This document shows positions 9,445 through 13,748 of a stretch of DNA of 64,000 bases, in pieces. The stretch lies in contig NC_007512.1 in the NCBI RefSeq assembly GCF_000012485.1, forward strand, positions 1,613,001-1,677,000, given 5' to 3'. Numbering within the stretch: the first letter of the stretch is position 1; each line of letters begins with the position of its first letter. The DNA comes from Pelodictyon luteolum DSM 273. Lineage in GTDB: Bacteria; Bacteroidota; Chlorobiia; Chlorobiales; Chlorobiaceae. Made by a program: the position numbers and the translations under genes. The notes beneath the pieces are model-generated. The model was given only the letters and a program-made list of their open reading frames with translations, had not been told where the DNA came from and searched no databases.

Positions 9445-10686
9445 TCAGTCTTCATCACTACCGCTTTTATGGCATCGCATACAGTTCTGATAGTTTCTGA
9501 TTCCTTCCTCACGATGCTCGGAGGCAATGTTCGACGCAGTGTGCTCATGGCATCCATAACAGGTGTACTTCTTAAAATCGGAAGAATCATTATGGCAGGT
9601 ACTGCAGCTTGCCCTATGGTCGCGGTCGAGACGGAAATATCGGTCATGATCGAAGCTTGCGGGCTTCCATGCCATGGTGCCATGGCAGGTGCTGCAGTTG
9701 GCGCCAGCGCTTGAGTGGAGGCGGTCTTTGGGCACCTCTCCTTTATGGCAGTCGATGCAGCGTTGAGCTGATGCAACTGTCTTGTGATCGAAGCTTGCCG
9801 GTTTCCAGCCGCTGGTACCATGGCAGGTGCTGCAGTTGGCACCGGCGCTTGAGTGGAGGCGGTCCCGGGGCACATCTCCTTTATGGCAGTCTATGCAGTT
9901 TGTACCGGATGCCAGCGACTTGTGATCGAAGCTTGCGGGTTTCCAGCCGCTGGTCCCATGGCAGGTGCTGCAGTTGGCACCGGCGCTTGAGTGGAGGCGG
10001 TCCCGGGGCACATCTCCTTTATGGCAGTCTAGGCAGCGTTGAGCTGATGCAACTGTCTTGTGATCGAAGCTTGCCGGTTTCCAGCCGCTGGTCCCATGGC
10101 AGGTGCTGCAGTTGGCACCGGCGCTTGAGTGGAGGCGGTCCCGGGGCACATCTCCTTTATGGCAGTCTAGGCAGTTTGTACCGGATGCCAGCGACTTGTG
10201 ATCGAAGCTTGCGGGCTTCCAGGCTCTGGTTGAATGGCATTCTCCACAGCTCCGGGTTGCGTAGTCGTGGAGTTTATCCTTTGGCTTTTGAACATCATGG
10301 CAAGAGTTGCAGTTGGCTCTGAGGTCAAAACTGATGCCTTCGTGCTTGAATGCGCGGACGGCTCTTGTCGAGTCACGACCCTTGTGATCGGTATGGCATC
10401 CGATACAGCTGTTCGCAGGCAGCCCCCTGTGGAACGATATTTTGCTGTCCTTCCGGAGAAGAGCCATTCCTTTGACGTTTTTGATGCCTATTTCCTCAGG
10501 CTTATGACAGCTCGTGCATTGCATAGCGAGTGCCCCCCTGAAAGGCCGGTGACATGAGAGGCAGTTTTTCTCTATATGAGCATGCCCCTGCATCAAAGGT
10601 CCAGGATTGAGCAGGTAATCCGGAAATGCAAGGACGAGGCCGACGACAATGGCGAAGAACGCAATGACAAGGATAACCAGTTTCAT
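9445..10686 (-). CDS. Hexadecahaem c-type cytochrome (16 CXXCH) with internal repeats
   Basis: This 413-aa protein has an N-terminal uncleaved anchor or signal (residues 1-20, MKLVILVIAFFAIVVGLVLA) followed by 16 CXXCH haem sites. Five single sites come first (Cys42, 57, 94, 126, 147). A central block has eight sites in four 46-aa units, each with one C(L/I)DCHKG and one CSTCHGT. The C-terminal cap has three sites (CSTCHND, CYGCHEH, CMRCHKS). Many additional histidines (FDHK, RLHSS, HEHT) could serve as distal ligands for bis-His haems. The protein should face the periplasm as a membrane-attached electron wire. It begins 4 bp after a b-type membrane cytochrome gene, so the two are almost certainly co-expressed. 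I do not recognise a named family beyond multihaem c3/c7-like cytochromes. Confidence 0.9.
   Translation of the reverse strand: MKLVILVIAFFAIVVGLVLAFPDYLLNPGPLMQGHAHIEKNCLSCHRPFRGALAMQCTSCHKPEEIGIKNVKGMALLRKDSKISFHRGLPANSCIGCHTDHKGRDSTRAVRAFKHEGISFDLRANCNSCHDVQKPKDKLHDYATRSCGECHSTRAWKPASFDHKSLASGTNCLDCHKGDVPRDRLHSSAGANCSTCHGTSGWKPASFDHKTVASAQRCLDCHKGDVPRDRLHSSAGANCSTCHGTSGWKPASFDHKSLASGTNCIDCHKGDVPRDRLHSSAGANCSTCHGTSGWKPASFDHKTVASAQRCIDCHKGEVPKDRLHSSAGANCSTCHGTMAWKPASFDHDRYFRLDRDHRASCSTCHNDSSDFKKYTCYGCHEHTASNIASEHREEGIRNYQNCMRCHKSGSDED
9648..10199 (-). repeat. Four tandem 138-bp coding repeats (276-bp super-period)
   Basis: Identical phase marks (GATCGAAGCTTGC on the plus strand) occur at 9648, 9786, 9924, 10062 and 10200, exactly 138 bp apart. 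Each unit encodes 46 aa with two haem sites. Two variants alternate: units starting 9648 and 9924 encode the TVASAQR linker, and units starting 9786 and 10062 encode SLASGTN. Units 2 and 4 differ at only about 2 of 138 bases. The array therefore seems to have grown by recent duplication of a 276-bp pair inside the 16-haem cytochrome gene. Confidence 0.93.
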
Positions 10687-10690
10687 TTTT

Positions 10691-11317
10691 TCACATCCAG
10701 TTTGCCCGGTTTGAGAAAAACAGGATTGAAACTACATGCACGAGAGTCAGGATTATCAGGAATGCGACCAGGGGCATATGCACCATTCTCCACTGGTTAA
10801 GGGCTTTCAGGGTCACTGCATTCCAGAAAAGTTGGCGGTCAAGGGCATCGTCTGGAGGGGTGAGGATACCGAGTTGCTGCTTTTTCAGCTTCGCCTCGTT
10901 CCTGAATCTCCGTACGAGATGCTGTCCGACATGGCCACTTGCTGTCACAATCATCATAAGTACCGTCGCTGCCCAGGGCAGAAATGCGTTGAAATGGATT
11001 CCGGAATGGACCAGTATCAATAGTGTTGCTATCCAGCCGGCGTGGCAATGCAGCTGGAGGAAGCGCTTCAGAGGTCCTTTCGGTATGATCTGTTTTTTTC
11101 TGGCCGAATAGAGGAAAGATAGCAGGAAAAATATGGTTCCAGCAACACCGAGGTACCGGCCGGCCAACTCTATTTGCAACTGGTGCAGCAGATAGTCGAG
11201 AGCCATCGATGCGACGATAAGCAGCAGATATGAAGCCGTCAGGGGTAAGGCTTTCCGGATCAGGATGGATTGCCCACATTGGCGGATCAGGTTACTGGTT
11301 TTTTGATTCCAGTACAA
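10691..11317 (-). CDS. b-type cytochrome membrane protein, partner of the 16-haem cytochrome
   Basis: This 208-aa integral membrane protein has about five hydrophobic helices (near residues 24-44, 55-71, 91-110, 112-130 and 181-201). Histidines sit in or at the ends of helices at positions 90, 92, 104, 108, 129, 133, 180 and 194, with contexts LHCHAGW, LVHSGIHF, SGHVGQHL, RMVHMPL and LVHVVS. This pattern fits a di-haem b cytochrome that could exchange electrons with the quinone pool. The start is a TTG at 11317 with an AGGGA Shine-Dalgarno 6 nt upstream. No in-frame ATG occurs before Met38, which lies inside the first helix. It is followed after 4 bp by the 16-haem cytochrome gene. The family is not one I can name with certainty; cytochrome b561 or ferric-reductase-like folds are the nearest. 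Confidence 0.75.
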   Translation of the reverse strand: MYWNQKTSNLIRQCGQSILIRKALPLTASYLLLIVASMALDYLLHQLQIELAGRYLGVAGTIFFLLSFLYSARKKQIIPKGPLKRFLQLHCHAGWIATLLILVHSGIHFNAFLPWAATVLMMIVTASGHVGQHLVRRFRNEAKLKKQQLGILTPPDDALDRQLFWNAVTLKALNQWRMVHMPLVAFLIILTLVHVVSILFFSNRANWM

Positions 11318-11332
11318 AGATATCCCTGATTC

Positions 11333-11371
11333 CTTAAACGAGCCTTAAGCCCGGCTTAAAAGTGTCTTAAA
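11333..11371 (-). promoter_or_regulatory. Four direct CTTAAR repeats at 11-bp period (PmrA/QseB-like box array)
   Basis: On the plus strand CTTAAA (11333-11338), CTTAAG (11344-11349), CTTAAA (11355-11360) and CTTAAA (11366-11371) are separated by exactly 5 bp each. Read toward the b-cytochrome gene this is YTTAAG-N5 repeated four times. Direct hexamer repeats with 11-bp spacing are the operator form of OmpR/PhoB-family response regulators, and YTTAAK-N5-YTTAAK is the PmrA box. The array ends 16 bp upstream of the b-cytochrome start codon. No response-regulator gene is present in the window. Confidence 0.7.
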
Positions 11372-11390: not shown

Positions 11391-11710
11391 CTATACATCC
11401 AGAAGGAAAGACCCGCTTGAACGGGACCCATTCCCACTCGTTCCAGAACGAAGGGCAATCGAGCAGAAATTTTTGATTTTGCTGACAATAGAGAAGGGAT
11501 CACTCACACCCGGAAGACCCTGCCGAAATTGCCGGAAGCTATTTCTCACTGAAACCGAATCTGTTGTTTTCAGCACTGCACACTTCGAATTTTTTAATCC
11601 GTTCGCCGTCCATGAATCGATCAAAGTGCCTTCGAGCGAATGCTTGATGGAATTGGAAAAGAGATGCATCAACATGATTTCAAGCAGTGACGCATCGAAA
11701 ACAATCAATC
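11391..11710 (-). pseudogene. Decayed histidine-kinase ATPase-domain fragment
   Basis: The minus-strand frame here reads VFDASLLEIMLMHLFSNSIK HS, a good match to the N-box of HATPase_c domains (LL..L..NLLSNAIKYS). Further on, KTTDSVSV sits where the G1 box (DTGxGI) is expected, FRQFRQG where the F-box helix is expected, and GVSDPFSIVSKI where the G2 box (GxGLSIV) is expected. The end SGNGSRSSGSFLLDV-like tail resembles the closing strand of the domain. The nucleotide-binding glycines of G1 and G2 are lost. The upstream part runs straight into the cyc2 terminator hairpin, so no dimerisation or sensor domain exists. I read it as the 3' remnant of a sensor kinase gene. A chance open frame is the alternative. 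Confidence 0.5.
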
Positions 11711-11763
11711 CCGAAGAGGGCGACGGCAAGAATAAGAGGGGGGACGGCAGAGGAAATAAAAGA

Positions 11764-11818: not shown

Positions 11819-11902
11819 ATAAAAGCAATCAAGAGATAAACGGGGGGCTTACCTCCTGACTACCGCTGAATAAACCCGCCGGAAAGCGGGAATGCTACTC
11901 CA

Positions 11903-13168
11903 TCAGAATGCGCTGTACAGCATCACTGTTGTCAGGTTGTCGCCCTTCGCATCAAGGTTGGCGTCATACGAGTAGAAGCTGTGGTTGATCTGCACGGTCA
12001 CGTTCTTAGCAACCAGATAGTTCATGCCGAGCGTCACAGCATCTTCCCCATCCAATGTTGCTTTTCCATTGCTGGCCGAACGGTATGCAGCACCAAGGGT
12101 GAGTTTGTAGGGAATAACACCCAGTTCCGCAGCAAGAGTCAGTGCTTCGGCACCTTTTGTATAAATATTGGTGGCAGCGTTGTCTGCCGATCCATAAGTC
12201 AGATAGACGCCAAGCGGCAGTTCACCCACATTACCCTGAGCCTGCGCGTCGACTGCCCATGCATTGGCGCTTTGGCTCGTTTCTGGATAGGTTGTCGTAA
12301 CCGGATCCGTAGTCGCATCCACAACCGCTTCTGTATATCTGGCGTCACCGTTCCACACCTGGAAACCGGCAGCAAGATCCCAACCGCCGATGGTCGGCGT
12401 CACCGCACCACGGAGATAACTGAACATCTGTCCGGAAGAAAAGATAGGATCCGCATTCGATCCTCGCTTGACATACGGCGAGAAGTTCAGGTAACCATAC
12501 TTGTGGTAGGCTACCAGCGCTGCGCCTGTAGCTGCTGTAGCAGTGCCGATGTACTGCTGGGCAGATGTTTCAGTCCGGTTTTCGAAGGCGCGGCTGAACC
12601 TGACCGCTCCGGTATTGAGGAGTTCAAAACCGTAGGCCGGGCCCTGGGTATCGGTGGTGAAGGGAATGACGTTGGCGATGAACTCCTTTCCCAGGTCGAA
12701 CACGAAAGGCATCTTGAAGGCAGCGAACACGCCGCCGGTACTCACGTTGGCAAGGTTGAGTTCAGTCTGGAATCCGATATTCTCAGCCACCCTGCCTCCT
12801 ACGGACAGAAATGCCTCGTCGGGGATCTGGAACTCTCCATCATTGAGCATACCATCTGGGCCCGTTGTCGTGGTGCCGTTCTTCTTCTGGTAACGCAGCT
12901 TGGTCACCAGTCCAAGATTGAGGCTAGAAGGAATGGACAGATCCTTGTCCTCGATGGTCTGCTGGGACCCCTTCATGACATAGCCCCTCGCCTTGAAATC
13001 ACGACCGAATGCGTTGAGCATAGGGAAGCGCTGGAAATGGCATGCGGTGCAGGACATGCCGGTCTGCCGTGCAAAAACCGGCGTTGCCTCGGCATCCTGA
13101 GGGAGTGCAAGCAGCAGGGCGGAAACCGCCCCGCCAGCAAGCACCCCAAGTGCATTTTTAAACTTCAT
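11903..13168 (-). CDS. cyc2: Cyc2-type outer-membrane fused cytochrome-porin (putative Fe(II) oxidase)
   Basis: This 421-aa protein has a signal peptide (cleavage near residue 28, after DAEA), then a single haem site CTACH (Cys40, Cys43, His44) embedded in the Cyc2 signature: SCTACHFQRFPMLNAFGRDF, then KARGY. The remaining 350 or so residues have alternating, aromatic-rich strands ending in F (VMLYSAF), typical of a 16-strand outer-membrane beta barrel. In characterised iron oxidisers Cyc2 takes electrons from Fe(II) outside the cell and passes them through the barrel to periplasmic cytochromes. It follows a c5-type cytochrome gene by 66 bp, the pairing known from photoferrotrophic Chlorobium. 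The ATG at 13168 has an upstream AAGGAGT Shine-Dalgarno. The function in this strain is inferred. Confidence 0.88.
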   Translation of the reverse strand: MKFKNALGVLAGGAVSALLLALPQDAEATPVFARQTGMSCTACHFQRFPMLNAFGRDFKARGYVMKGSQQTIEDKDLSIPSSLNLGLVTKLRYQKKNGTTTTGPDGMLNDGEFQIPDEAFLSVGGRVAENIGFQTELNLANVSTGGVFAAFKMPFVFDLGKEFIANVIPFTTDTQGPAYGFELLNTGAVRFSRAFENRTETSAQQYIGTATAATGAALVAYHKYGYLNFSPYVKRGSNADPIFSSGQMFSYLRGAVTPTIGGWDLAAGFQVWNGDARYTEAVVDATTDPVTTTYPETSQSANAWAVDAQAQGNVGELPLGVYLTYGSADNAATNIYTKGAEALTLAAELGVIPYKLTLGAAYRSASNGKATLDGEDAVTLGMNYLVAKNVTVQINHSFYSYDANLDAKGDNLTTVMLYSAF

Positions 13169-13234
13169 ACGGTACTCCTTGTTGTGGTTGGTTGGTTGGT
13201 TGGGAAAAACGGGACGAATCCCGTCAATGCAGCA

Positions 13235-13585
13235 TCAGAGGCTTTTGGTCACCATGAAGGCAACAGCATCTGCAATCTGGGCGTCAGTCAACGACTGCTT
13301 GCCTCCACGGGCAGGCATTCCTTTGAACCCCTTGATGGAATTAGCCAGCACGGGAGCAAAACCACCCGCAACTCTGGCACTCCATGCCACCTTGTCGCCG
13401 GGTTTTGGTGCGCCCATGATGCCGTTATTGTGGCAGACCGCACAGGTGGAATTGTAGATCGCAGCTCCTTTGACAAGATCATGCTGCGCCTTCAGGGCTG
13501 CAGGATCGGGAGACGCTGCCTGAAGGGGCTGCTGAGACAGCAACAGGGAACAGGCGAATACTGCTGAATAAAAGATTCTTTTCAT
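13235..13585 (-). CDS. Periplasmic c5-type monohaem cytochrome
   Basis: This 116-aa protein has a signal peptide (MKRIFYSAVFACSLLLS, cleavage near AQA-like site LQAA at residues 21-24), haem site CAVCH (Cys48, Cys51, His52) and the distal Met90 in GFKGMPARGG. The helix LTDAQIADAVAFMV closes the class I fold. This resembles the cytochrome c5/c555 family of small soluble carriers. It is directly upstream of cyc2 on the same strand and is the likely first electron acceptor from it. The ATG at 13585 is chosen because it begins a normal signal peptide; the open frame upstream (from 13672) runs through a hairpin and is not protein-like. Confidence 0.9.
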   Translation of the reverse strand: MKRIFYSAVFACSLLLSQQPLQAASPDPAALKAQHDLVKGAAIYNSTCAVCHNNGIMGAPKPGDKVAWSARVAGGFAPVLANSIKGFKGMPARGGKQSLTDAQIADAVAFMVTKSL

Positions 13586-13615
13586 GGGGATGATCTCCGG
13601 ACAGGTTAACAAATG

Positions 13616-13641
13616 CCTTTCGTGAATTGGGTCACGAAAGG
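13616..13641 (-). promoter_or_regulatory. Perfect 10-bp inverted repeat upstream of the c5-cyc2 unit
   Basis: CCTTTCGTGA (13616-13625) and TCACGAAAGG (13632-13641) are exact inverted copies with a 6-bp centre. The repeat sits 31 bp upstream of the c5 start codon. It could be a repressor operator or a 5'-leader hairpin. It is not followed by a T-run, so it is unlikely to be a terminator. Confidence 0.55.
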
Positions 13642-13748
13642 TGAAGAGTGTGCTGGTGATAATGACTTCCATGACAACGGAACATCAACAAAAATCTACC
13701 GCACTGCGATATTCCGTGAATTGCATATGGATAAAAACCGTGGACGAT

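Follow-up and report, generated by a model that had tools for sequence, protein, structure and literature searches.

Response regulators of the OmpR/PhoB family bind direct repeats as tandem dimers (PMC4832192). In M. tuberculosis, PhoP sites are head-to-tail repeats of 7-bp boxes with a 4-bp spacer, and runs of three and four repeats are bound cooperatively and more tightly (PMC4832192). In enterobacterial PmrAB, which consists of an OmpR-family regulator and a membrane kinase, verified PmrA boxes read CTTAAG-N5-XTTAAT (PMC3973317), and the site form of QseB is CTTAAN4CTTAG (PMC10714720). Additionally, the qseBC genes of Acinetobacter baumannii have ygiW as their immediate upstream neighbour (PMC6382973).

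In this study, we analysed an array of four boxes ahead of a b-type cytochrome gene in a window of 64,000 nucleotides, the whole stretch of DNA under study. Similar to PmrA boxes, the array consists of head-to-tail YTTAAK hexamers with a 5-bp gap, and an OmpR-family regulator and membrane kinase are linked to it; in contrast, it has four boxes rather than two, and its targets are predicted to be cytochromes and the regulator's own operon. The ygiW-qseBC system shares the CTTAA direct repeats, and a BOF (YgiW-like) gene heads the two-component operon in this strain. However, the regulator and kinase described here fall below the QseB and QseC cut-offs, and most of the relatives' operons examined showed no BOF gene. 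The 11-bp period is also that of the PhoP sites, whose box sequence is different. The CztR/SilR/CopR-CztS/SilS/CopS systems differ in that both proteins here score below threshold and no efflux genes are present in the operon.

We consider it likely, on sequence grounds, that the array is the operator of a Chlorobiaceae two-component system of the OmpR/PhoB family, which would activate its own operon and the cytochrome operon. The computed observations are the array, its spacing, its conservation, its position in the promoter, its linkage to and co-occurrence with the response regulator, and the presence of only two such sites in this genome. No description of this regulator-operator pair was found in the open-access literature searched. 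What it provides for green sulfur bacteria is a specific regulator matched to a specific operator, with two operons as the target set. It opens a direct test of whether the kinase senses the iron or redox state and of the control of cytochromes that may carry electrons across the envelope.

Probable operator array and promoter

The elements of the promoter region are as follows.

11333..11371, minus strand: four-box operator, head-to-tail YTTAAG with an 11-bp period (direct sequence read, pattern search and conservation)
11371-11366, 11360-11355, 11349-11344 and 11338-11333, minus strand: single boxes of the array
11315..11322, minus strand: TATCTTTG, a -10/-7-like element (same spacing in most orthologous promoters)
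11277..11279, minus strand: conserved start codon position, ATGTGG in relatives and ATGTGGG here (comparison with relatives)
10691..11317, minus strand: open reading frame of a b-type cytochrome-like membrane protein (weak Ferric_reduct match, 21.9 bits against a cut-off of 28)

Direct reading bore out the four CTTAA(A/G) hexamers at exact 5-bp spacing. On the plus strand, these are CTTAAA (11333-11338), CTTAAG (11344-11349), CTTAAA (11355-11360), and CTTAAA (11366-11371), and on the minus strand, toward the b-cytochrome gene, the array reads TTTAAG-N5-TTTAAG-N5-CTTAAG-N5-TTTAAG. In most orthologous promoters of relatives, the array is followed by 11 nt, TATCTTT, approximately 37 nt, and ATGTGG. 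Similarly, TATCTTTG starts 11 nt past the last TTAA of the array here, and it fits the Bacteroidota TAnnTTTG form. No sigma-70 -35/-10 pair was found in the promoter region.

The original prediction had placed the start codon 16 bp from the array, which corresponds to TTG 11317. This codon lies inside the TATCTTTG element (11322-11315) and is probably outside the transcript; the true start is probably the conserved ATG at 11279, 54 nt away. At 11273-11279 of the minus strand, one extra G relative to the congener CIII causes a +1 frameshift, which puts the b-cytochrome frame out of register with this ATG. Beyond the extra G, the frame is open and 94% identical to CIII. The extra G either arose by recent mutation or is an error in the sequence. 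With its start frameshifted in the reference strain, the downstream gene may therefore not be made.

In the proposed mechanism, the kinase would phosphorylate the regulator, whose subunits would line up head to tail across the four boxes, on a single face of the helix. The bound regulator would extend as far as 10 bp from the -10 element, in a promoter that shows no recognisable -35, and would recruit RNA polymerase. It would thereby raise its own operon by positive feedback, as well as the operon of the b-cytochrome and the multihaem cytochrome. Both the binding and its activating direction are inferred here, the latter from the geometry. Alternatively, the same regulator could bind as a repressor and turn the operon off on the signal; indeed, the proximal box, 10 bp from the -10 element, covers the -35 region and also overlaps where a repressor would act. 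However, the promoter has no -35-like element with which to work alone, and the box-to-element geometry seen here is typical of PhoB-type activators. Repression is thus improbable, and activation is the reading that we prefer.

Two-component system linked to the array

An operator profile built from 43 operators gave exactly two sites in the 2.36-Mb genome and none further up to an E value of 10. One site (E 6e-9) lies upstream of the two-component operon, BOF-DUF4405-regulator-kinase at 1.37 Mb, 254 kb from the array, and the other (E 2e-8) precedes the b-cytochrome. Conservation before the b-cytochrome gives no independent support, because b-cytochrome operators were among those used to build the model. 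The regulator of this operon is located as follows.

G000:C1:1370030-1370728: response regulator, with the histidine kinase gene directly after

The response regulator contains Response_reg (PF00072) and Trans_reg_C (PF00486), both above the cut-off, and the kinase contains HAMP, HisKA, and HATPase_c; the domain content of both is standard. Head-to-tail repeats at 11 bp and a linked regulator with a receiver and a winged-helix Trans_reg_C domain, the features of an OmpR/PhoB-type operator, are both found. In relatives, the genes are contiguous in the order DUF4405-regulator-kinase-array-b-cytochrome-multihaem cytochrome, and the DUF4405-regulator-kinase operons examined also have a four-box array of the same design upstream.

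At the threshold used, the regulator occurs in 79 of the 86 family genomes and the operator likewise in 79 of 86. Their presence agrees in 84 of 86 (Fisher p ~1e-7, a value that overstates independence because the genomes are related), with the operator found in 78 of the 79 genomes with the regulator and absent from six of the seven without it. The two mismatched genomes are G077 (85% complete), which has the operator without the regulator, and G045 (450 contigs), which has the regulator without the operator; the six genomes without both belong to two genera. Moreover, G002, G022, and G029 contain the regulator without the b-cytochrome, and the one operator of each lies 0.6-1.2 kb upstream of the regulator. 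Autoregulation therefore appears to be the core of the system.

Six other Trans_reg_C loci are present in the genome, and linkage together with geometry points to the linked regulator as the probable partner of the array. The kinase would most likely respond to a metal or redox cue from outside the cytoplasm. Its sensor loop is acidic and variable; of ExxE, the periplasmic Fe(III)-binding motif of the PmrAB type, each sequence has 0-3 copies, with no conserved motif aligned. This acidic loop and the nearest, sub-threshold resemblance to CztR/CztS are the only hints of a metal signal. Elsewhere in the genome, the locus at G000:C1:1251000-1256000 (L093) contains near-identical tandem copies of a response regulator C-terminal part and a secreted protein gene.

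Comparison with known regulator families

Regulator membership was assessed against the NCBIfam curated cut-offs. The best matches were CztR/SilR/CopR (TIGR01387) for the regulator, with 213.5 bits against a cut-off of 279.2, and CztS/SilS/CopS for the kinase, with 241 bits against 293, both sub-threshold. The regulator scored 155.3 bits for PmrA (NF007928, cut-off 330), 158.5 bits for QseB (NF007663, cut-off 345), and 200.4 bits for PhoB (TIGR02154, cut-off 296.2), while the kinase scored 141.4 bits for PmrB (NF008025, cut-off 314) and 121 bits for QseC (cut-off 475). Membership in PmrA, QseB, CopR, and PhoB was rejected, as all scores are below the cut-offs.

The original prediction had described the array as a PmrA/QseB-like operator. 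As a true PmrA box or QseB site, it would be bound by a PmrA/QseB orthologue answering Fe(III) or an adrenergic/quorum signal. The box sequence and N5 spacing do match verified PmrA boxes (PMC3973317), with three overlapping matches to YTTAAK-N5-YTTAAK in the array. The CTTAA repeats of the QseB site (PMC10714720) and the BOF gene at the start of the two-component operon, where ygiW adjoins qseBC in A. baumannii (PMC6382973), point in the same direction. However, both proteins are far below the PmrA, PmrB, QseB, and QseC cut-offs (for the regulator, 155 against 330 and 158 against 345), solved structures of other OmpR-family proteins rank well above that of PmrA (BasR), and the boxes number four, not two. 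An orthologous PmrA or QseB system is thus very unlikely. Two-component control itself stood, as the OmpR/PhoB-type direct repeats are in promoter position, conserved, and linked to a two-component system; the PmrA/QseB identity did not.

Still less credible is a PHO box belonging to a PhoB-like phosphate regulon. The 11-bp direct-repeat form is common to OmpR/PhoB sites, and another OmpR-family regulator adjoins a kinase gene in the genome (L091); in contrast, just two operators exist in the genome, upstream of the two-component and cytochrome operons, and the linked regulator reaches 200 bits against the PhoB cut-off of 296. The operator of a separate Chlorobiaceae OmpR/PhoB-family system remains the preferred reading.

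Rarity and conservation of the array

The two-box pattern YTTAAK-N5-YTTAAK has 3 matches in the window, all inside the array, against 0.01 expected from dinucleotide shuffles. Across the genome (2,364,842 bp, single contig), the scan that had been suggested for this pattern gave one further occurrence outside the array and thus no random scatter, and the three-box pattern was found only at this array, even allowing one mismatch. By a crude estimate from hexamer frequency, approximately 3e-8 four-box arrays are expected per genome. Among 65 genus genomes, three-box arrays number 50 at period 11 (in 26 genomes), 4 at period 12, and 1 at period 10. The boxes are AT-rich TTAA words, but an origin of the array by chance, or as a functionless low-complexity repeat, has a negligible probability and was ruled out, in agreement with the earlier claim, by near-zero expectations in shuffles and by composition, by the preference for period 11 over 10 and 12, and by the same promoter position kept across two genera.

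The b-cytochrome is present in 71 of the 98 genomes of the class, all from two genera of one family. When a position weight matrix was left to settle on the best site in the b-cytochrome upstream regions, the four-box array with an 11-bp period was found in approximately 60 of 70; approximately 10 of these orthologues have no array upstream. True sites mostly scored 27-74 and shuffled sequences below -4. The repeats are thus mostly kept where the downstream genes are kept, and the lack of conservation that the original prediction had named as a refutation was not observed. The third box is usually TTCAG in relatives and TTAAG in the window and in CIII, which is why the array of the window looks perfect. 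Farther away, the two cytochrome genes also occur in a Bacteroidetes relative (L202, 40% identity), where the listed open reading frames include no linked two-component system and TTAA does not recur at 11-bp steps. No b-cytochrome relative was found in viral contigs.

Cytochrome operon and its neighbourhood

The following features flank the array and the b-cytochrome gene.

9445..10686, minus strand: multihaem c-type cytochrome, second gene of the operon (16 CXXCH motifs)
11412..11425, minus strand: terminator-like hairpin just upstream of the array (not above shuffle expectation)
11574..11711, minus strand: decayed remnant of a histidine kinase ATPase domain (tblastn, expected frame, E down to 4e-8)
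11875..11890, minus strand: terminator-like hairpin directly after cyc2 (not above shuffle expectation)

The 16 CXXCH motifs of the multihaem cytochrome lie in near-identical internal repeats. At 11903-13672 (minus strand) are the genes of a small c-type cytochrome and of a Cyc2-like single-haem porin-type cytochrome, the latter assigned by eye and without a match in Pfam or NCBIfam. Control of an "electron conduit", as originally suggested, applies to the operon of the b-type and 16-CXXCH cytochromes; it does not extend to the cyc2 pair, which has its own terminator-like hairpin and no operator of the array type upstream.

The kinase remnant lies within the 531 bp that separate cyc2 from the array, and its homologue in relatives is the kinase encoded ahead of the array. 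Its best matches are sister-genus kinases (E 4e-8 and 1e-6), whereas this genome's own kinase gives an E value of 0.37. Compared with three sister-genus genomes, the b-cytochrome shows 80-82% identity, against at most 62% for congeners, except CIII. The cytochrome module and its operator were probably acquired or rearranged without the kinase and would now be served by the 1.37-Mb system.

Further arrays in Chlorobium genomes

In some Chlorobium genomes, arrays also occur before TlpA-DUF4266-DUF3570 operons (DUF4266 assigned by eye), before Fib_succ_major, TPR, and zinc-ribbon genes, and before a Rieske gene whose downstream neighbour resembles a molybdopterin oxidoreductase (the latter assigned by eye). 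The array may serve as a marker motif with which to search these genomes for more electron-transfer operons. ApbE flavinylates the DUF3570 protein of C. luteolum, and clusters that include thioredoxin-like and DUF4266 proteins have been described (PMC8238504). The genome studied here does encode DUF3570, but the profile search found no operator near that gene.

More speculatively, a Chlorobiaceae-wide two-component system might sense an extracytoplasmic metal or redox cue and switch on extracellular electron-transfer modules, namely the operon of b-type and multihaem cytochromes in most genomes and, in some Chlorobium, also the array-bearing operons of TlpA-DUF4266-DUF3570 (flavinylated) proteins. 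If true, this rather improbable scheme would be the first transcriptional control of electron conduits to be described for the phototrophic, partly iron-oxidising, green sulfur bacteria.

Because several genomes with additional arrays carry a second response regulator at 55-60% identity, the arrays at additional targets may belong to this paralogue. Such second paralogues occur in genomes with many arrays; the one at G065:C114:78793-79595 is 58% identical and has an operator approximately 100 nt upstream. In G027 and G041 (L096 and L097), a Cyc2-like gene and a TlpA-DUF3570 operon flank an array.
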